Shown piece by piece: positions 2,136 to 46,722 of a DNA stretch of 64,000 bases. The notes beneath the pieces were generated by a model. It searched no databases. It was not told where the DNA came from and saw only the letters and a list, made by a program, of their open reading frames with translations. The translations under genes and the position numbers were made by a program. How positions within the stretch are numbered: position 1 is the stretch's first letter; each line of letters opens with the position of its first letter. The DNA comes from an uncultured cyanobacterium (GTDB lineage: Bacteria; Cyanobacteriota; Cyanobacteriia; PCC-6307; Cyanobiaceae): positions 62,001 to 126,000 of the forward strand of contig CAIOGZ010000092.1 of NCBI GenBank assembly GCA_903858015.1, given 5' to 3'.

Positions 2136-3320
2136 ATGGCTGAATCAAGCCCTCCCAACATCGATCGCCAGCCAATGCCGGCCCTGGCCAACCCGTTCGG
2201 ATCTCGCCTACAGCCGATCCCCAGCCTCAAGGAGAGCAGCATTGAGTTAAAGGGGGTGATGCCCCTCAAGAGCATCTCCCCCCTTGGCGCCGCTGCCCGC
2301 AGCCAAGCCCCTGCCTCCAGCCAAGCCCATGCCTGCTGCCAAAGCGAAGCAAGTTCTAATCCGAACCACGGCGCCGCCCATCAGTGGCGCCACGATGGCC
2401 ACACCACCGCAATCGGCGACCTCACTGCCCACGCCGCGATCCTGGAGCAGCTGGAGCTGGAGCTGGAGCCCCAGAACGACCTCTGCGCCATTTTGATCCT
2501 CGGCGGCAGCCTCATGGTGGAGCAGGCGGGGCAATCGCTGCACTGTGCCTCCCCGGGCCTGTTGCTGATCTCTAGCCCGGCTTGGTGTTGCCTCACCAAC
2601 AGCAGCAGCCTGGTGGTGTTGAACCTGAAGCAACTGCAGCTGCAAACCACCGTGATGGCGATGGTCGAGAACCGGCCGCTGCCGCAGCACTGGCAGCAGC
2701 GGCTCCAGCCCGATCTGCTCTGGCGAGCGGAAAATTCCGCTTCCTGCCACGCCCTGAAGTCGGGCCTGGCTCAGATGCTCAGCATCGCCAACAACCTGCT
2801 CGATCACGGCCCCAGCCTCGTGGCGCGCCTGGGGCTAGACGAAATGGTCTACAGAATGTTGGCGGCGATCTTGATTCCGGAATTACAGCTAAACGATTCG
2901 CTTAAGCAGCTGCAATCACGCAAACAAGACGGCCAAGACAGGTTCACCGATCTAATCGCCTACATCGAAGCCCATCTGCACCAGCCCCTCGGCCTCGAGC
3001 AGCTGGAGCGGAGGAGCCATTATTCGCGCCGAACACTCCAGTACACCTTCCAGCAACGGCTTGGCTGTAGCCCCAGCCAATGGATTCGCAGCGTGCGACT
3101 CGAACGGGCCAAGGTCAAGCTCCAACAACCACAACCAGGCGACTCGGTCACCCGAATCGCCAAGGCCTGCGGCTACCGCTCGCTCAACCTTTTCTCCCAG
3201 GATTTCCAGCAGCGCTTCCAGGTCAAACCATCGGAACTGTTGCGCGAATCCCAGGCCAAGCTGCCAGCTACGCAGCCAAGCCGAACCAACAACGCTGAAG
3301 ACGGGCTCAGCGTGGCTTGA
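2136..3320 (+). CDS. AraC-family transcriptional regulator
   Basis: A 394-residue regulator. The last ~110 residues form a double helix-turn-helix AraC domain (from about residue 270: YIEAHLHQPLGLEQL, SHYSRRTLQYTF, then RIAKACGYRSLNLFSQDFQQRF). The middle part is a beta-rich sensor region resembling the cupin-like half of the family, and the first ~90 residues are low-complexity A/S/Q/P. It resembles the second AraC gene in this window (37058-38125), especially in the SRRxLQYxFxQRxGCxPxQW stretch, so they are paralogues. Unlike that gene it has no sulfatase beside it, and its target is unknown. Its 3' end overlaps the next convergent gene by 14 bases. Confidence 0.85.
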   Translation: MAESSPPNIDRQPMPALANPFGSRLQPIPSLKESSIELKGVMPLKSISPLGAAARSQAPASSQAHACCQSEASSNPNHGAAHQWRHDGHTTAIGDLTAHAAILEQLELELEPQNDLCAILILGGSLMVEQAGQSLHCASPGLLLISSPAWCCLTNSSSLVVLNLKQLQLQTTVMAMVENRPLPQHWQQRLQPDLLWRAENSASCHALKSGLAQMLSIANNLLDHGPSLVARLGLDEMVYRMLAAILIPELQLNDSLKQLQSRKQDGQDRFTDLIAYIEAHLHQPLGLEQLERRSHYSRRTLQYTFQQRLGCSPSQWIRSVRLERAKVKLQQPQPGDSVTRIAKACGYRSLNLFSQDFQQRFQVKPSELLRESQAKLPATQPSRTNNAEDGLSVA

Positions 3321-36061: not shown

Positions 36062-37029
36062 CCGCCGCCCGCCCGCCTGGACGTCCCCCGGCCCGGGAGA
36101 TGGTGTGGATTGGCGGCGGCAGCTTCCAGATGGGCTCTGATCGCCATTACCCCGAAGAGGCGCCGGCCCACCCGGTGGCGGTGGATGGTTTCTGGATCGA
36201 TCGCACCGCGGTGACCAACGCCCAGTTCCAAAAGTTCGTCAAAGCCACGGGCCACCGCACCCTGGCCGAGCGGCCAGCCGATCCCAGCGCCTACCCGGAG
36301 GCGCTGCCGGAGCTGCTGCAGCCGGCCTCAATTGTGTTCGTGCCGCCGCCGAGGCCGATCGGCAAGGGCGATCCCTACCAGTGGTGGCGCTACGTGGCGG
36401 GGGCGAACTGGCGCCATCCGGAGGGGCCCGGCAGCTCGATCAAGGGGCGGGAGCAGCATCCGGTGGTGCACATCGCCTTCGAGGATGCCCTGGCCTACGC
36501 GGTCTGGATCGGCAAGGGCCTGCCCACGGAGGCGGAATGGGAGTGGGCGGCCCGGGGCGGCCTGGCCGCAGCGGAGTACGCCTGGGGCGAGGAGCTCCAT
36601 CCGGCCGGGCGGATGCTGGCCAACACCTGGCAGGGGGATTTCCCCCACCACAACAGCGGCGCCGACGGCTGGGAAGGCACGGCGCCGGTGGGCTCCTATC
36701 CCGCCAACGGCTACGGCCTGCTCGACATGATCGGCAATGTCTGGGAATGGACCGACGACTGGTACCAGGAGCACCGGGCCCGGCTGGCAAGCGAACCCGA
36801 GGGCTGCTGCAACACCTTGGGCAATCCCCGCGGCGCCCCGGACCCGGGCAGCAGCATCGACCCCAGCTCCCAGCACGCCAGCATCCCCCGCAAGGTGGTG
36901 AAAGGCGGGTCGTTCCTGTGCGCCCCCAGCTACTGCCGCCGCTACCGGCCTGCGGCGCGGATGGCCCAGGGGATCGACACCTCCACCTGCCATCTGGGCT
37001 TCCGCTGCATCGTGCGGCCCCGACCATGA
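36058..37029 (+). CDS. Formylglycine-generating enzyme (sulfatase-modifying factor)
   Basis: 323 residues of the FGE-sulfatase fold: MVWIGGGSFQMGSDRHYPEE at the start, HPVAVDGFWIDRTAVTNAQF, GLPTEAEWEWAARGG, DMIGNVWEWTDDWY and the active-site region GGSFLCAPSYCRRYRPAARM with the two copper-binding catalytic cysteines (Cys288 and Cys293) spaced CxxxxC as in the human enzyme. It would oxidise the CSPSR cysteine of the arylsulfatase encoded ~1.4 kb downstream to formylglycine. Co-translated with DUF1622. Confidence 0.93.
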   Translation: MTAARPPGRPPAREMVWIGGGSFQMGSDRHYPEEAPAHPVAVDGFWIDRTAVTNAQFQKFVKATGHRTLAERPADPSAYPEALPELLQPASIVFVPPPRPIGKGDPYQWWRYVAGANWRHPEGPGSSIKGREQHPVVHIAFEDALAYAVWIGKGLPTEAEWEWAARGGLAAAEYAWGEELHPAGRMLANTWQGDFPHHNSGADGWEGTAPVGSYPANGYGLLDMIGNVWEWTDDWYQEHRARLASEPEGCCNTLGNPRGAPDPGSSIDPSSQHASIPRKVVKGGSFLCAPSYCRRYRPAARMAQGIDTSTCHLGFRCIVRPRP

Positions 37030-41091: not shown

Positions 41092-41781
41092 ATGCTCACC
41101 ATGACCAAGGGCTGGCCGCACGAAACCCGATCGCCCCGCCAACAGCCCCCCAGCCGCTCGCGACTGCCGGAGCGCCTGCAGCGGCTGCTGGGGGCCCTAA
41201 TCGCAGCCGCGGGCGCCTACCTAATCACCCGCCAGCTGGCGGCCCTGCCCTCCACCTTCCTTGCGGCGTTGCTGCTGGCGGGGGGCTCGATCCTCAGCGG
41301 CCGGGCCATCGCCGCCTGGGCCTGGGGGGCGGTGCTGGGGGCCGGCTGCGGCGGCCTGCTGGGCAGCGCCATGGTGGTGGCCGAGAAGATCCACTCCACC
41401 AATCCCCACGAAGGCCTCAACCTGCGGCTGGCGCTGCTGGCTTGCCTGATGGTGGCGGGGGCGATCGGCGGCCGCAGCTTCAGCCTCGATGCCAACCACC
41501 CGGATCGCCGGCCCCCGAAGGACACCCTGCGCTCCGCCAGCGCCCTCACCACCGGCATCTTCGCGGCCGTGGTCACCCTGGCCTTCCTCCATTCCGGCCT
41601 CGATGAAGCCCGCGCCGTGGGCAGCCGGCTGAGCACCTCGCTCACCATCTTGGTGCTGGCCCTTACCGGGCCCGGCTGGTTGGTGCACCTGCTGGGGGAT
41701 CGGGCTGGGCGGCCAACGGCTGAACAGCCCAGGGCTGGACAGCCAGGGGCTAGGCAGCCAGGGGCTGGAAGGCAGCGCTAA
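41092..41781 (+). CDS. Hypothetical membrane protein, C terminus repetitive
   Basis: 229 residues with about five hydrophobic helices (RLLGALIAAAGAYLITRQL, TFLAALLLAGGSILSG, AVLGAGCGGLLGSAMVV, RLALLACLMVAGAIGG, LTILVLALTGPGWLVHLLG). The last ~25 residues come from an in-frame tandem repeat of GGCAGCCAGGGGCT. I recognise no family. Part of this gene (33 bases of its 5' region and the last ~200 bases) is present again at 44844-45057 with the middle deleted. Its 3' end abuts the IntI remnant. Confidence 0.6.
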   Translation: MLTMTKGWPHETRSPRQQPPSRSRLPERLQRLLGALIAAAGAYLITRQLAALPSTFLAALLLAGGSILSGRAIAAWAWGAVLGAGCGGLLGSAMVVAEKIHSTNPHEGLNLRLALLACLMVAGAIGGRSFSLDANHPDRRPPKDTLRSASALTTGIFAAVVTLAFLHSGLDEARAVGSRLSTSLTILVLALTGPGWLVHLLGDRAGRPTAEQPRAGQPGARQPGAGRQR

Positions 41782-41935
41782 GGGGGTGGGGCCAGAAGTG
41801 CCGCACCATTGAGGAGTTGCTGGGCCCCAGGGACTTGAACATCACGATGATCTATCCCCATGTGCCCAACTGCGGCCCACCCAGGGGGCGCAGGCCTGCA
41901 GACCTTGTGTAGCTAATCGAACATGGGGTTATCGG
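41582..41935 (+). repeat. Direct repeat, copy 1 (membrane gene end, integrase end, attC left arm)
   Basis: This stretch recurs at 44875-45212 with few substitutions and one missing 15-base repeat unit. It contains the 3' end of the membrane protein gene, the integrase C-terminal remnant and the left end of an attC-like site. Confidence 0.85.
41799..41912 (+). pseudogene. C-terminal remnant of an integron integrase (IntI-like), copy 1
   Basis: The 37 codons before the TAG at 41910 read CRTIEELLGPRDLNITMIYP and HVPNCGPPRGRRPADLV. They align with the end of IntI-type tyrosine recombinases (xRTVQELLGHxDVSTTMIYTHVxxxGxxGVRSPxD), including the catalytic tyrosine in TMIYPHV. The R-K-HxxR part of the enzyme is absent: upstream is the membrane protein gene. 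It cannot be a functional enzyme. An attC-like site starts four bases after the stop. Confidence 0.75.
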
Positions 41936-42089
41936 ACCCGCAAACCACGCCAATTTTTGGCTGATGCTCGCCGGGGGGCACTGCAGAGCAATGGTTTTTA
42001 GGTTGTCGAGCCCGATGCCTCAGCGTGGTTCTCGGAGAGTGGGAGCACTCGGGGCGTGGTTCTCGGAACCTCCCAATAAAGAGTTAGGC
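41916..42089 (+). other. attC-like recombination site, 174 bp (site 1)
   Basis: Begins at ATCGAAC (41916-41922, close to RYYYAAC) and ends with GTTAGGC (42083-42089, fits GTTRRRY). Inverted arms: AACCACGCC (41943-41951) against GGCGTGGTT (42053-42061). The right arm GCGTGGTTCTCGGA is present twice, 31 bases apart (42023 and 42054). Site 2 has the same length and layout. It lies directly after the integrase remnant. Confidence 0.72.
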
Positions 42090-42165: not shown

Positions 42166-42369
42166 ATGGCCACGAATCTTGCTCTCGACCAGGAGCTGCT
42201 CGATCGAGCCTTCCGCGTAAGTGGAGAGCCGACCAAGAAAGCCGCAGTCACCCGAGCCCTTCAGGAGTTCATCGCCCGGAGAGAACAGCGGCGGGTCGCA
42301 GAGCTTTTTGGAAAGCTTGAGTGGGACGCTTCGTTCGATTACAAGGCTGAACGGGCTCGCAAGCAGTGA
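42166..42369 (+). CDS. vapB: VapB-family antitoxin
   Basis: 67 residues from ATG 42166, placed by AGAGGAG six bases upstream. N-terminal strand-helix-helix (MATNLALDQELLDRAFRVSG, TKKAAVTRALQEFIARREQR) is the VapB type II form that binds DNA, and the C-terminal helix (ELFGKLEWDASFDYKAERAR) blocks the toxin. The stop overlaps the toxin's GTG start (GTGA). It is the first gene of the cassette bounded by attC sites 1 and 2. Confidence 0.9.
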   Translation: MATNLALDQELLDRAFRVSGEPTKKAAVTRALQEFIARREQRRVAELFGKLEWDASFDYKAERARKQ

Positions 42370-42773
42370 GTCTTCTTGTTGACACGAGCGTCTGGTCACT
42401 GGCTCTGCGCCGTGATGTTGAGCAATCCGCACCCGAGGTAGTGGCCCTCCGCCACGCACTTCTGGGGACAGATCAGGTCTTCACGACAGGACTGGTCCTC
42501 CAGGAGCTGCTGCAAGGCTTTGCTGGGCCGAAGGACCGAGCCCAGCTGATCGATCGCCTCTCAGCGCTCGCCTTCCTCCAGCCGGTTAAGGAAGATCACA
42601 TCGAAGCAGCAGAAGTCCGTAACTCCTGCCGTCGTTGCGGCGTGCAAGTTGGCACCATTGACGCCCTACTCATCCAGCTCTGTCGCAAAAATGATCTGAC
42701 CCTGTTGACGACGGACCAAGACTTTCACGCAGCCACCAAGCACGTTGAGTTCAGGTTGTGGAGCGCAAGGTGA
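42366..42773 (+). CDS. vapC: VapC-type PIN-domain ribonuclease toxin
   Basis: 135 residues, complete PIN site: Asp6 (SLLVDTSVWSLAL), Glu47 (LVLQELLQG), Asp99 (VGTIDALLIQLC) and Asp117 (LTTDQDF). It is a ribonuclease toxin held in check by the adjacent VapB. Toxin-antitoxin pairs with their own promoter are typical passengers of sedentary integrons, where they stabilise the array. GC content is lower than in the core genes. Confidence 0.92.
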   Translation: MSLLVDTSVWSLALRRDVEQSAPEVVALRHALLGTDQVFTTGLVLQELLQGFAGPKDRAQLIDRLSALAFLQPVKEDHIEAAEVRNSCRRCGVQVGTIDALLIQLCRKNDLTLLTTDQDFHAATKHVEFRLWSAR

Positions 42774-42917
42774 TGGTTAATCCCTGTAGCGCCCCAGCCC
42801 CGCCGGTAGTCGCCGCTCTCCTCGATCGTTGGGTGCCACGACTGCCAAGGGTTGCCTCTTTCCAGCTGCGCGAATGACAAGAATGGCCAAGCCAGTCGAT
42901 CCCGGCTGGTGTATCAA
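42774..42917. other. Non-coding tail of the vapBC cassette
   Basis: About 145 bases between the vapC stop and attC-like site 2. No gene or repeat recognised. Confidence 0.5.
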
Positions 42918-43091
42918 CAAGAACATGTGGTTATCGGACCCGTGAACCACAGCAACATTATGGAGGTCGCAGACCAAAGCCTATGCAGCAACAGGGTTTC
43001 CGGTCACCTCTGCAGCTGCTCTTTCTGTGGTTCACGGAAAGGAACGGCCGGCCGGTGGTGGTTCACGGAACCACCGATTAACAAGTTAGGT
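42918..43091 (+). other. attC-like recombination site, 174 bp (site 2)
   Basis: From CAAGAAC (42918-42924, degenerate left core) to GTTAGGT (43085-43091, fits GTTRRRY). Inverted arms CGTGAACCAC (42941-42950) and GTGGTTCACG (43058-43067) are perfect over 10 bases; TTATCGG near the left end pairs with CCGATTAA near the right end. The right arm GTGGTTCACGGAA is again present twice, 31 bases apart (43027 and 43058). Length and layout are the same as in site 1, with coordinated changes in both arms. Confidence 0.75.
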
Positions 43092-43096
43092 CACAC

Positions 43097-43420
43097 ATGA
43101 GAGATCGCGTACAACCAAGAAAGCTGGTGCTGGCCTTCTTCGGATTTGGGCTGTTTTTGTCCTGCTCGACGAGCGTCTGGGGGTTGGTATCTAGCCTGTT
43201 TAAGCTCAATGAGAATCAGATATTGTACTTATTCTCAACCTCTGCTCAGGTGCTCGCAGGCATATATGGCCTTACCTTGACAGGATTTATTGTCAGCCGA
43301 CATCGAAAACTGGTGGCGCAGTTTTGGATGTCGGTTGACAACGCCATTCACCTGAGCCGCCACCGAGTAGTCTTGGCTTATTCCACAGTCTTTCTGCGGC
43401 CAGGTGATGGCGAGCGTTAG
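43097..43420 (+). CDS. Small cassette-borne membrane protein, probably C-terminally altered
   Basis: 107 residues starting six bases after the attC core, the usual position of a cassette gene. Two membrane helices: VLAFFGFGLFLSCSTSVWGL and LFSTSAQVLAGIYGLTLTGF, separated by SSLFKLNENQILY. From about residue 80 the frame runs into attC-like site 3 and its stop codon TAG is part of the GTTAGAC core, so the real C terminus is probably lost or changed. No function known. Confidence 0.6.
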   Translation: MRDRVQPRKLVLAFFGFGLFLSCSTSVWGLVSSLFKLNENQILYLFSTSAQVLAGIYGLTLTGFIVSRHRKLVAQFWMSVDNAIHLSRHRVVLAYSTVFLRPGDGER

Positions 43421-43422
43421 AC
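43336..43422 (+). other. attC-like recombination site, 87 bp (site 3)
   Basis: Left core ends in AAC (43336-43342) and right core is GTTAGAC (43416-43422). Left arm CGCCATTCACCTGAGCCGC (43342-43360) pairs with right arm GCGGCCAGGTGATGGCG (43396-43412) over 17 bases once one T and one A in the left arm are left unpaired, six bases apart. Such extrahelical bases are the hallmark of folded attC sites, and site 4 has the same two. Confidence 0.8.
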
Positions 43423-43868
43423 GCCGTCATGCTCGCCAAGTCTCCACGGTGTCGCCCTTCGGAGGGTGGCAAGTTCTGATGACACGGATTCAGGTTATCC
43501 TGAGAGGGCATTGACACTGGAAAACGATTATTTTGAACGGCTGGGATACGCTGCTTCAATGATTTGTTGGCTCAAGAGATGTCGAGCTGCTTGGGTCTAT
43601 TCATGGCAGTGATCTCGAGGCGAATACTGCGCAGACTGAGACGGAGATCACGGGAAAGTTCGCGATCAAAAACTTGGAGATTCCTCCGGTATTGTTGAAT
43701 AAAAACATCATCAATGGCATTTAAGTGTCAAGTCCGAATGAGGTAGACGCGGATTTTCTTGCTAGAGGTTTCTCTTCATCTGATCCGAATGACATCGCTG
43801 GGCAAGCCAGCTTGGCCGGCGGTTGGTTGATTGGCCTGTGCTAAGGGTATTGGCCGAGCTGAGGGCGT
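43423..43868. other. Decayed cassette sequence without an intact gene
   Basis: A plus-strand frame reads IILNGWDTLLQ, then an in-frame TGA at 43558, then FVGSRDVELLGSIHGSDLEA and EITGKFAIKNLEIPPVLLNK up to a TAA at 43722. The peptide looks coding but is broken and has no start codon, so a gene has probably decayed here. Family not recognised. Confidence 0.4.
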
Positions 43869-44324
43869 TCAGGGCCTATTGAGCTCTTCCTGCAGCTTGT
43901 CCCAGTCCTGCGGCAGGTCACCGCGGCGCACCATCTGCTGGAAGACGGCGTAGCAATCATTGCGATCACCCTCCTTGCGGGGGAAGCCCAACCAGAGGAT
44001 CAGCAACACCTTTCGGCCATTGGCCTCGAAGACCCGAAAGAAAAGACGGTAGCGATCGGGCAGACCCAGCCCCTTGAGCCGTCCATAGCGCCGCAGCGGA
44101 CCCGTGAGGGCAAAGCGAGCGGCATAGGGATCTGCCGCGATCCGCTCCTTGATTCCCTCCATCACCGCGGCGAGCAGCTTGACCTGCGGATGCTGCAGGA
44201 AGCTCTGCTGATCGAGTTGCTGCTTGAGGCGTTTGACCTCAGCTTTGAGCTGCTCGTACTGGCGCGCGAACAGCTGGGGTTGGAAGACGATCTCCCAGCC
44301 ATGGCGCACCAGGGCCGATCTCAT
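43869..44324 (-). CDS. yhaV: YhaV-family RelE-fold mRNA interferase toxin
   Basis: 151 residues. HGWEIVFQPQLFARQYEQL at the start and the C-terminal core RFALTGPLRRYGRLKGLGLP, YRLFFRVFEANGRKVLLILW and LGFPRKEGDRNDCYAVF match YhaV toxins, ribosome-dependent ribonucleases. The ATG overlaps the antitoxin stop (ATGA). It is on the opposite strand to the other cassette genes and no attC core was found immediately on either side. Confidence 0.88.
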   Translation of the reverse strand: MRSALVRHGWEIVFQPQLFARQYEQLKAEVKRLKQQLDQQSFLQHPQVKLLAAVMEGIKERIAADPYAARFALTGPLRRYGRLKGLGLPDRYRLFFRVFEANGRKVLLILWLGFPRKEGDRNDCYAVFQQMVRRGDLPQDWDKLQEELNRP

Positions 44325-44677
44325 TCCTGCGCAGGCGCGCCCGCTGACTCCATCGTATCCACCGTGACACCGGCGAGCAGCTCATCGTCTTCTGCCGCCA
44401 TGGCCTCGGTGTAGGGCAGGGGCCCGGTTTCGACGGTCAACGCCTCACGGGTGAGCAGATCGAGGAAGAGACCGAGCATGAGGCTCCCATCCTCCGGCTC
44501 ACCGTTCTGCCGCTCGTTGGGCTCGAAGCGCATCAGCAGGGTGTCGTTGCTGAGCACCTCCACCTGCCCTGGGGCGCCACTGAACTGGGGGTGATCGCGG
44601 TAGAAGGCGGCAGCAAGCCGCAGACCGGAGGAGTTGCCGATCTGGGCCGGGGTGACGCGGTAGCGGGAAGAAGCCAT
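44321..44677 (-). CDS. prlF: PrlF-family antitoxin
   Basis: 118 residues. The N-terminal swapped-hairpin region (ASSRYRVTPAQIGNSSGLRL, AAFYRDHPQF, VEVLSNDTLLMRFEP) and the LMLGLFLDLLTREAL plus MAAEDDELLAGVTVD tail are those of the antitoxin partnered with YhaV. It would neutralise the toxin and repress the operon. Confidence 0.85.
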   Translation of the reverse strand: MASSRYRVTPAQIGNSSGLRLAAAFYRDHPQFSGAPGQVEVLSNDTLLMRFEPNERQNGEPEDGSLMLGLFLDLLTREALTVETGPLPYTEAMAAEDDELLAGVTVDTMESAGAPAQE

Positions 44678-44843
44678 GACAAAAACCCCGAACGCAGTGG
44701 ACTTACATCGCGTTAGTCCGAAACTCTAGGACCTTCTGGCCGTCGTGGCCAGGCCCTACACGGTGGTGCGCCTGGCTTGGGACACCCTGGAGCCGGCTTC
44801 GGCTGCACGTTGACGAAGCTGCGGGGGGTGGAACCAATGCATG
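44678..44843. other. Spacer between prlF and the second repeat copy
   Basis: Contains the presumed prlF promoter region on the minus strand, but no clear -10/-35 pair. No gene recognised. Confidence 0.4.
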
Positions 44844-45212
44844 GGGGGCCCTAATCGCAGCCGCGGGCGCCTACCTTCCTCCATTCCGGCCTCGATGAAG
44901 CCCGCGCCGTGGGCAGCCGGCTGAGCACCTCGCTCACCATCTTGGTGCTGGCCCTCACCGGGCCCGGCTGGTTGGTGCACCTGCTGGGCGATCGGGCTGC
45001 GCCGCCAACGGCTGGACAGCCAAGGGCAGGACAGCCAGGGGCTGGAAGGCAGCGCTAAGGGGCTGGCGCCAGGAGTGCCGCACCATTGAGGAGTTGCTGG
45101 GCCCCAGGGACTTGAACATCACGATGATCTATCGCCATGTGCCCAACTGCGGCCCACTCAGGGGGCGCAGGCCTGCAGCCCTTGTGTAGCAAATCGAACA
45201 TATGGTTATCGG
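44844..45212 (+). repeat. Direct repeat, copy 2, internally deleted
   Basis: Bases 44844-44877 match 41190-41222, and bases 44875-45212 match 41582-41935; the ~360 bases between them in copy 1 are missing, with a short CCT at the join. The copy keeps the membrane gene's last ~170 bases, the integrase end and the attC left arm. Confidence 0.85.
45076..45189 (+). pseudogene. C-terminal remnant of an integron integrase (IntI-like), copy 2
   Basis: Same 37 codons as at 41799-41912, ending in TAG at 45187, with MIYRHVPNCGPLRGRRPAAL in place of MIYPHVPNCGPPRGRRPADL. The catalytic tyrosine is kept. It is part of repeat copy 2 and is followed four bases later by a shortened attC-like site. Confidence 0.75.
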
Positions 45213-45236
45213 AAGCTGCCAATAAAGATTTAGACC
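45193..45236 (+). other. Deleted attC-like site
   Basis: ATCGAAC...GGTTATCGG (left end as in site 1) is joined directly to GCCAATAAAGATTTAGAC, which matches the right end of site 1 (CCCAATAAAGAGTTAGGC). The ~130-base centre, including both arms, is gone and the core reads TTTAGAC, so it no longer fits GTTRRRY. It should be inactive. Confidence 0.65.
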
Positions 45237-45264
45237 CACCGGAAGGCCACTTATTGTGGCGAAG

Positions 45265-45293
45265 TTGACGGGTTGCCTTTCCGTAGCTACTAT
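45265..45293 (+). promoter_or_regulatory. Probable promoter of brnTA
   Basis: TTGACG (45265-45270) and TACTAT (45288-45293) with 17 bases between, directly before the brnT start. Confidence 0.55.
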
Positions 45294-45298
45294 AAAGC

Positions 45299-45596
45299 GT
45301 GGAGTTTGATTTCGACCCGCCAAGGACGCAACCAATCTGAGCAAGCACGGCCCCTCCATGGCGACCGCAGCTGACCTCAGCTGGGATGCGGCACTTGTCT
45401 GGATTGATGATCGGGCTGACTATGGTGAAGTAAGGATGGTTGCCTTGGCTCCAACTGGAGACATACTCTTTTTGTAGCCTTTGTTGATCGCGAACCAGTA
45501 AGGCGAATTATTAGCCTACGCAGAGCCAATCGCCGTGAGTTCAGCCACTATGTCCAAGCCATCAAAGAAGATCAGCCTAAAGATGCCGACGCTTGA
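45299..45596 (+). pseudogene. brnT: BrnT-type toxin gene with two one-base deletions
   Basis: Read through three frames, the sequence gives a BrnT (DUF497) toxin: VEFDFDP, then NLSKHGPSMATAADLSWDAA and WIDDRADYGEVRMVALAPTG, then VAFVDREPVRRIISLRRANR and FSHYVQA. One base is missing near 45317-45319 (CCCG) and one in the T-run at 45469-45473. BrnT is a RelE-like ribonuclease; this copy cannot be made intact unless the deletions are assembly errors. The gene overlaps brnA as in normal brnTA operons. Confidence 0.8.
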
Positions 45597-45861
45597 GGAA
45601 GATCGGTTGACTACATCGGCAGCGGAATCAGATCTTGATGCCCTTCCGCTTACAGACGAGCAGATGAGCGCGATGGTCCCCATGCGGGTGCTGCGCGGCC
45701 GTCCAAAGTTGGCAAATAAAAAGCAGCTGGTTTCAATCCGGTATAGTCCTGAGGTCATTGACTATTTCAGGGCTTCTGGAGCTGGTTGGCAAGCCCGCAT
45801 GGATGCTGTTCTGAAGGACTATATCGAAGCTCACTCCACTGGCGATGCGAAGGGGGCCTAA
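45550..45861 (+). CDS. brnA: BrnA-type antitoxin
   Basis: 103 residues from ATG 45550 (a GTG at 45535 is also in frame). The C-terminal ribbon-helix-helix (KKQLVSIRYSPEVIDYFRAS, GWQARMDAVLKDYIEAH) is the BrnA antitoxin form, and the N-terminal half (LTDEQMSAMVPMRVLRGRPK) is the usual linker. Intact although its toxin is broken. Its TAA stop lies inside the left core of attC-like site 4. Confidence 0.85.
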   Translation: MSKPSKKISLKMPTLEEDRLTTSAAESDLDALPLTDEQMSAMVPMRVLRGRPKLANKKQLVSIRYSPEVIDYFRASGAGWQARMDAVLKDYIEAHSTGDAKGA

Positions 45862-45940
45862 AATCAAGATTCAGAAGACGGGAGCGAATGGCGCCGTCTA
45901 TGCCAAAGTCATGGCACGCTTCTGATCTGGAGCGTTAGGC
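45856..45940 (+). other. attC-like recombination site, 85 bp (site 4)
   Basis: Left core GCCTAAA (45856-45862; one base off RYYYAAC) and right core GTTAGGC (45934-45940). Left arm AGATTCAGAAGACG pairs with right arm CGCTTCTGATCT over 12 bases with one T and one A unpaired, six bases apart, exactly as in site 3. It closes the brnTA cassette. Confidence 0.78.
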
Positions 45941-46015
45941 ATCGTACCCACCGGGATGCGGCAGCTCGCCGGCTGAGCGATTGCATTTCAGCCTGCCAGT
46001 GCCATCATCAAGCGA

Positions 46016-46269
46016 GTGAACGGAACCCACCGCAAGACCCCCGAAAAGGTATTCACCGATCCCATCAATGGGACCATCCACTGGTCTTGAATCGAATCCT
46101 TGCTGAAAGCAGCGAGCTGCAGGGTTGTTGAAGCTGCAGCTCATCCGTCACGGCTGAGTTCAACGGCAGAACGATGACCCTCCACCGCCTTCATCCCGGC
46201 ATGGAAGCACTTCGCTACCGGGTGCTGGCCATTCGGAAGTTCATCGAACGCATGGAGATCAAGCCATGA
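46016..46269 (+). pseudogene. hicA: HicA-type toxin gene, disrupted
   Basis: From GTG 46016 the frame reads NGTHRKTPEKVFTDPINGTI and HWS, then an in-frame TGA, then IESLLKAASCRVVEA, and after a frameshift FNGRTMTLHRLHPGMEALRY and IRKFIERMEIKP. This is the length and order of a HicA RNA-binding toxin (dsRBD-like fold), but both a stop and a frameshift break it. Its stop overlaps the hicB start (ATGA). It is the first gene after attC-like site 4. Confidence 0.75.
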
Positions 46270-46478
46270 TTAATTCCATGGCCTACAAGGGCTACACGGC
46301 GAGTATTGTCTTCGACATTGAAGGCAAGATCATCGTTGGTCGCGTCCTGGACATTGACGAAGTTATCTCATTTCATGGCGAGTCGGTAGCAGAGTTTGAG
46401 CCCAACTTTCATGCAGCCATCGAGGACTATCTAGCCGCATCCAAGGGCCTTGGTTCTGCACCGGAAAAGCCCGCATGA
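46266..46478 (+). pseudogene. hicB: HicB-type antitoxin gene, truncated by an in-frame stop
   Basis: The 70 codons MAYKGYTASIVFDIEGKIIV, LDIDEVISFHGESVAEFEPN and AIEDYLAASKG are the N-terminal pseudo-RNase fold of HicB. After the TGA at 46476 the same frame continues with AKVMLRISPEIHAAAIEEGA, the start of the HicB DNA-binding part, so a nonsense change has cut the protein. The rest decays into unrelated sequence up to a TAG at 46617. Confidence 0.75.
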
Positions 46479-46722
46479 GCCAAAGTAATGCTGCGCATCT
46501 CACCGGAGATCCATGCAGCAGCTATTGAAGAGGGCGCCCGCCGAGAAGAACACCGCCCCCGTCGTCGCCACGACCAGCCTGGCTTGCCTCGAGTTCAGGA
46601 TCCAGAGCCTCTGCTGTAGCCACTTGGATCCTCGAATAAACTCCAATAAGGCTCAAGAAGGTCCAGCCGATCGGGACCAGCCAAAATCAGTCCCAGACCC
46701 GCTGCTCCGGCACCCCCTTCCG

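Follow-up and report, generated by a model that had tools for sequence, protein, structure and literature searches.

Two attC-like sites in a probable relic toxin-antitoxin cassette array of a cyanobacterial genome

We investigated two short hairpin sites, numbered 3 (43333/43336-43422) and 4 (45856-45940), within a stretch of 64,000 nucleotides (hereafter the window, in whose coordinates all unprefixed positions are given) on contig C92 of genome G000; C15, C37 and other such labels denote further contigs of the same genome. The genome is cyanobacterial, because it encodes PsaA and PsaB, and the named relatives of its integrase suggest that it is picocyanobacterial. Both sites lie in an array of toxin-antitoxin genes, attI-like DNA and remnants of an integron integrase gene (intI), spanning about 41.8-46.5 kb of the window, and in all likelihood they are true recombination sites of integron gene cassettes (attC). 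Their parts, including the first and second extrahelical bases (EHB1, EHB2), are as follows.

43333..43422, + strand: site 3, putative attC; R'' GGTTGAC at 43333-43339 in the model register, or alternatively TGACAAC at 43336-43342
43345-43355, inner parts of site 3: outer stem CAT 43345-43347; EHB1 T 43348; six-base stem CACCTG 43349-43354; EHB2 A 43355; then inner stem GCCGC
43416-43422, + strand: R' of site 3, GTTAGAC
45856..45940, + strand: site 4, putative attC; R'' GCCTAAA 45856-45862, R' GTTAGGC 45934-45940
45868-45878, inner parts of site 4: outer stem GAT 45868-45870; EHB1 T 45871; six-base stem CAGAAG 45872-45877; EHB2 A 45878; then inner stem CG

Structure and folding of sites 3 and 4

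By direct reading, the arms of site 3 (CGCCAT-T-CACCTG-A-GCCGC against GCGGC-CAGGTG-ATGGCG) pair over 17 bp and those of site 4 (AGAT-T-CAGAAG-A-CG against CG-CTTCTG-ATCT) over 12 bp, the stem lengths given in a first-pass annotation of this DNA. That annotation had also described an unpaired T in each left arm followed, six paired bases later, by an unpaired A, and the sequence and DNA folding bear this out: the minimum-energy folds of both strands left both bases, or their complements, bulged at both sites, with one extra bulge in the bottom-strand fold of site 4. Fold z-scores against dinucleotide shuffles were −4.33 (top) and −4.24 (bottom) for site 3, and −3.37 (top) and −2.59 (bottom) for site 4; among 200 shuffles each, the number folding at least as well was 0 and 0 for site 3, and 0 and 1 for site 4. 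The annotation would have been contradicted by paired bases or by stems no more stable than shuffled sequence, and the folds exhibited neither.

The two sites share one layout (3 bp, EHB1, 6 bp, EHB2, inner stem), with spacers of 5 nt on the left and 6 nt on the right. Both end 3' in an R' core of the form GTTRRRY, and in the L box of each, one arm carries two extrahelical bases a fixed distance apart (T-6bp-A). Six pairs between the extrahelical bases is the spacing of class 1 cassettes. The R''/L''/L'/R' order, the GTTRRRY core, the extrahelical bases and an open reading frame (ORF) stop within the site are those of the attC of gene cassettes, from which the AAA in R'' of site 4 and the weak R box of site 3 depart; in a typical attC, R'' reads RYYYAAC and pairs with R'. 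The start of site 3 can be read in two registers: 43333 matches a sister site and the covariance model described below, and 43336 was the first-pass choice.

Recurrence of the geometry against chance

A first scanner specifying an outer stem of 3 bp, a free base, 6 bp, a free base, an inner stem no shorter than 2 bp and a core matching GTTRRRY returned nine matches, equal to eight distinct sites including sites 3 and 4, in 332,447 bases of the own genome; five simulated sets of equal dinucleotide composition returned none. A wider scan covered 680,512 bases, the window plus 50 loci; requiring GTTnRRn anchors, a spacer of 6 nt and 3 bp or more of inner stem, it found 34 sites at 3,297 anchor occurrences. 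Site 3 is among them; site 4 falls outside because its inner stem measures 2 bp. Eight altered anchors, each occurring 2,077 to 4,374 times, gave 0, 2, 0, 0, 0, 0, 0 and 1 sites, and spacer lengths other than 6 nt gave 0 to 6. Altered anchors replaced a mirror-image control, which was dropped since nearly all of its matches were attC sites read from the opposite strand. The triplet AAC stood at the R'' place in 30 of the 34 sites, although R'' played no part in the scan.

These 34 sites offer a natural test set for the conserved part of attC geometry. They comprise 11 different outer/six stem combinations with identical bulge positions; EHB1 was C in 12, G in 9, T in 9 and A in 4 sites, EHB2 was A in 24, G in 5, T in 3 and C in 2, and the T/A pair of sites 3 and 4 occurred in six. 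Both positions are kept and the identity of EHB1 is not; with that position fixed and its base free, the T common to sites 3 and 4 is partly coincidence. The first-pass proposal that geometry is conserved without sequence thus stands for the positions of the extrahelical bases across the genus, and the shared T has nothing special about it.

Covariance model and its matches

We built a covariance model (R1) from an alignment of 31 of the 34 scan sites, leaving out site 3, an L126 site of 61 nt and an L119 site whose R'' is displaced; neither window site is therefore in the model. In the alignment, 92.9% of cells were paired and 13 of 20 pairs showed two-sided changes, with 79.7% pairing in the R box, the sole pairing free of scan demand. 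R1 scored 61.0 bits on site 3 (43333-43422, E 1.4e-13) and 55.2 bits on site 4 (45856-45940, E 4.7e-12), and its third-best match in the window reached 12.4 bits. Rfam at gathering thresholds had no match within the window. Seven of eight same-class genomes without an integrase over cut-off, serving as controls, gave 14 matches of 34-45 bits, the highest at 44.8 bits; some of these may be real, as two sit 650 bases apart on one contig. Pairs of moderate matches in such controls, at G035:C16:11294-12115 and G032:C158:1099-3554, are possibly real small attC clusters.

The own genome contained 48 R1 matches (150 scored out of 3,632 first-look candidates), spread over many places in small groups; 36 exceeded the 44.8-bit control ceiling and 12 did not. 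One cluster, at G000:C92:152166-157721 towards the end of the contig that contains the window, has four matches above 60 bits and one weak match (33.2 bits). At E ≤ 0.001, all 42 genus genomes searched, own included, had R1 matches, between 1 and 62 per genome, these counts being lower bounds under stricter filters; 10 of the 42 had contributed sites to the model and 32 had not. Matches were present in 13 of 15 same-genus intI stretches, all on the intI strand, and at E ≤ 0.01 in 9 of 12 intI loci from other phyla. Ten named cyanobacterial intI loci, searched at E ≤ 0.001, gave sites in six (L133, L134, L135, L137, L158, L177) and none in L149, L154, L206 and L212.

An integrase over the family cut-off was found in 23 of 40 genomes, own included. 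G000 carries an intact intI on C15 (457 bits, over cut-off), a split one on C37 (378.5 bits when its neighbours are counted in) and further partial matches; the integrase-matched stretches total 27, some of which are perhaps other tyrosine recombinases, because all 14 control genomes match below the cut-off. The family search found no match on C92. Integrase relatives among the 80 loci kept included Synechococcus sp. 1G10, BSA11S, CS-1329, Cyanobium and Vulcanococcus, together with many other phyla. C15 also carries a sister of site 4 (L053:18255-18341), some 8 kb downstream from its intact intI and with a further intI fragment in the interval; a sister of site 3, with R'' GCCTAAC, lies in L064. 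Relatives of this genome widely carry integrons. The attC identity proposed in the first pass is supported by the geometry, the ORF stops, the sister sites and a model that contains neither window site.

The window array and its neighbours

The other features of the array are, in order:

41092..41781, + strand: P0001, left neighbour of the array, no family match; matched in 21 of the 42 genus genomes (own included)
41790..41909, + strand: intI remnant, copy 1, last 40 codons; tblastn 52.5% to residues 286-325 of the C15 integrase (IntI), E 2.6e-7
41904..42089, + strand: attI-like site 1, R' GTTAGGC 42083-42089; resembles DNA immediately 3' of intI genes
42166..42773, + strand: VapB-VapC toxin-antitoxin genes; Pfam VapB_antitoxin 1.1e-15, PIN 1.1e-14; NCBIfam VapC over cut-off
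42890..43091, + strand: attI-like site 2, R' GTTAGGT 43085-43091; nhmmer and BLAST
43097..43420, + strand: ORF of 107 aa, no family match; begins 5 nt past the attI-like R', its TAG inside R' of site 3
43869-44324, − strand: YhaV toxin gene; Pfam Toxin_YhaV 2.5e-42
44321-44677, − strand: ORF before the YhaV gene, antitoxin candidate by position only; no match in Pfam, PADLOC or NCBIfam
44844..45235, + strand: partial second copy of the P0001 3' part, the intI tail (45058-45186) and a shortened attI-like site; direct repeats D1, D2 and D11, and alignment
45535..45861, + strand: BrnA antitoxin gene; Pfam BrnA_antitoxin 2.6e-19; its TAA inside R'' of site 4
46000..46478, + strand: HicA/HicB-like remnant, named by eye; three-frame reading

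The stops of the 107-aa ORF and of BrnA fall inside sites 3 and 4, as expected of gene cassettes. Upstream of BrnA lies a broken frame, named BrnT-like by eye. The DNA directly after the first intI tail is attI-like, as judged by similarity, and the second tail matches IntI residues 285-325 at 48.8% (tblastn). The two copies form a partial duplication (41190-41936 against 44844-45213), 92-100% alike by block, the second having lost about 350 bases internally.

In L094, L095 and L097, P0001 adjoins a homologue of the gene at 46513 and the array is absent: the gap between the matching blocks is about 360 to 515 bases, vs. about 5.4 kb in the window. R1 at E ≤ 0.1 found nothing in 20 P0001 loci, among which the window's own ends at 43278, before site 3. 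Promoter scanning of the array gave 2 sites vs. 1.4 in shuffles, and terminator scanning gave 5 vs. 3.8. A plasmid collection yielded 16 records, all of whose matches fall within 36089-36960, upstream of the array, and are mostly annotated as formylglycine-generating enzyme.

With two R1 matches in the window and no integrase match on C92, the array qualifies as a CALIN (cluster of attC sites lacking integron-integrases), described in passages of PMC9024848 (IntegronFinder 2.0) as at least two attC with no intact intI nearby and proposed there to be a degraded integron. Unlike a plain CALIN, the window array still has a visible integron origin, because intI tails and attI-like sites remain. 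The array is most likely a degenerate, relic integron.

Predicted recombination competence

We computed the probability of folding (pfold) with R and L boxes enforced, using DNA parameters, for 35 sites. The bottom strand of site 4 gave a pfold of 0.23, rank 15 of 35 (median 0.17), and its R'' GCCTAAA forms 6 of 7 pairs with R'. In site 3, the L box alone had a formation probability of 0.45, and the R box was weak in every register tried. These predictions suggest that site 4 is probably still able to recombine and that site 3 probably recombines weakly at most.

Several observations weigh against reading the two sites as attC of an integron remnant. The bottom-strand pfold of site 3 was 5.1e-5 in the 43333 register, the lowest of the 35, with 4 of 7 Watson-Crick pairs in the R box, and 0.0098 in the 43336 register, with 3 of 7 pairs and AAC intact. 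Site 4 has AAA rather than AAC in R'', beside the crossover. The bottom strand of site 3 folds slightly more stably than its top strand, that of site 4 less stably, and the spacer is partly paired in the predicted folds of both sites, vs. the unpaired central spacer of attC. The array is without an intact integrase gene, and no integrase over cut-off was found at the locus. As for the model, its 100% L-stem pairing arose by construction, because the scan demanded the L stem, and the 12 weaker own-genome matches fall in a doubtful range, because control genomes gave matches at 34-45 bits.

attI-like DNA and the 264-bp units

Long GTTATCGGACC repeats were considered as long attC sites. That candidate was dropped because DNA like theirs immediately follows intI genes on the 3' side, and this position, next to intI or its fragments, is the reason for taking it as attI. 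Such DNA occurs there on C37, C15, C60 and the window in G000, and in seven other genomes (G002, G004, G008, G012, G013, G018, G023).

Full-length attI with about 80 further bases upstream makes up a unit of 264 bp, present 11 times in G000 at 72-99% likeness (on C48, C18, C6, C15, C57, C22, C46 and C17; examples are L057:1043-1306, L076:3305-3568 and L053:15908-16170). We aligned 14 units, the 11 from G000 and one each from G019, G010 and G005. Homology extends from about a GTT on the left to a GTT on the right. All right flanks differ, as do the left flanks except those of C57 and C18:71815, which share theirs; the C15:43455 and G005 units are apparently at one chromosomal place. The start of four units (C48, C18 twice, C15) coincides exactly with R' of a strong attC match, the C6 unit begins on a weak one (20.3 bits), and the other six begin on none reported. 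The units have no conserved ORF, the longest closed ORFs being 32-79 aa and varying among copies; five near-identical copies show by eye a −10-like TACAAT and a poor −35.

These observations raise the tentative idea, which we hold at somewhat less than even probability, that an attI was turned into a mobile cassette, a 264-bp unit between IntI crossover points that spread through arrays. A unit of this kind may be the ancestor of attI-like site 2 (42890-43091), which lies between VapBC and the site 3 cassette. If the idea is true, each unit would be a new double-stranded landing site, perhaps with a promoter, in or outside an array.

The nearest published counterparts are ΔattI-type cassettes and gene-less promoter cassettes. 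In the former, from class 1 and 2 integrons, an attI-derived 3' site replaces attC, as in the units; the passages of PMC12901181 describing them report partial attI behind ORFs, several of 14-18 nt and one longer attI2 type, whereas the units have about 185 nt of attI, no conserved ORF and many copies. The latter, from Vibrio superintegrons (PMC11014356), likewise lack a gene, but the units end in attI-like DNA.

A short attI-like form, GGTTATCGGAA-CTGCCA...TAAAG, recurs at L053:8658, at 45203-45235 of the window and, slightly different, upstream of the L086 unit; it may mark a former insertion point or represent an attI that has collapsed. A similar form stands upstream of the C15 unit, which bears on chance deletion as the origin of the window's third copy. 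Two IMG/VR contigs (L213:3889-5251 and L214:2962-4932) carry an attI-like site, one gene (DUF4365 in L213, SIR2-like in L214) and an attC match, with no intI in the stretches examined. Among viral contigs, the site 4-type pattern occurred in two, the attI 16-mer in two (L215, L216) and the site 3-type pattern in none; nhmmer found no attI in L215 and L216 despite the 16-mer match.

Discussion

We consider it highly probable that sites 3 and 4 are attC of a degenerate toxin-antitoxin cassette array, the remnant of a chromosomal integron whose integrase is reduced to tails. Geometry, membership in the model, occurrence throughout the genus and the lack of the array in relatives are observed; IntI binding, recombination and the order of events we infer. 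IntI would bind the folded bottom strand, guided by the R and L boxes and by the pair of extrahelical bases, and strand exchange would take place at G^TT of R'; both steps are established for other integrons, according to passages of PMC5371416 and PMC12901181. The array would be the leftover of a chromosomal integron placed between two neighbouring genes, its integrase shrunk to two tails of about 40 codons.

The alternative that survives best is that the array is a store still used in trans by the C15 or another IntI, its geometry being under present selection. The intact C15 IntI, on the contig bearing the sister of site 4, could act in trans on the window sites, and the mid-rank pfold of site 4, the L box of site 3 on its own and the intact AAC in its 43336 register all fit such use. 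Against this stand the broken BrnT-like and HicA-like frames, the intI tails, the shortened third attI-like site, the AAA of site 4 and the weak R box of site 3, and we regard present use as unlikely. Selection for recombination, proposed in the first pass, is well supported for the site family and not for the present state of the window locus, where two tails are all that is left of intI.

A second alternative takes both hairpins for simple terminators or mRNA structures of toxin-antitoxin genes, with a chance resemblance to attC; it would suit their place at ORF 3' ends and their stability relative to shuffles. Yet the terminator scan listed neither hairpin; a GTTRRRY core, fixed spacing and a double bulge characterise attC, not terminators; hairpins of equal geometry are numerous in related stretches, and R1 scores exceed those of controls. 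We therefore judge this explanation highly improbable. Least credible of all is that the hairpins are transposable-element repeats rather than IntI substrates: several hairpin sequence families are indeed dispersed in many copies, but 11 outer/six stem combinations share constant bulge positions, matches near intI genes lie on the intI strand, and R1 also matches beside intI in other phyla.

The kind of system is already known. Passages of PMC2426708 cite an earlier survey and report intI in Cyanobacteria, and PMC8352920 reports an attC covariance model specific to Cyanobacteria; sites 3 and 4 are therefore further members. Literature searches, limited to open access and judged by titles and listings, turned up no paper on integrons of Cyanobium, Vulcanococcus or Synechococcus, or across picocyanobacteria.

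Sedentary chromosomal integrons of Vibrio and Xanthomonas hold accessory cassettes, toxin-antitoxin genes among them. The cyanobacterial system is like them in being spread over a genus. Unlike them, it has its matches genome-wide in small groups, with intI and cassette sites on one strand and attI-like DNA directly after the intI stop.

Gamma-proteobacteria account for 93% of the complete integrons in public genomes, as stated in a passage of PMC9024848. With attC matches in all 42 genus genomes searched and an integrase over cut-off in 23 of the 40 looked at for one, such phototrophs would amount to a large but little-described reservoir of cassettes.

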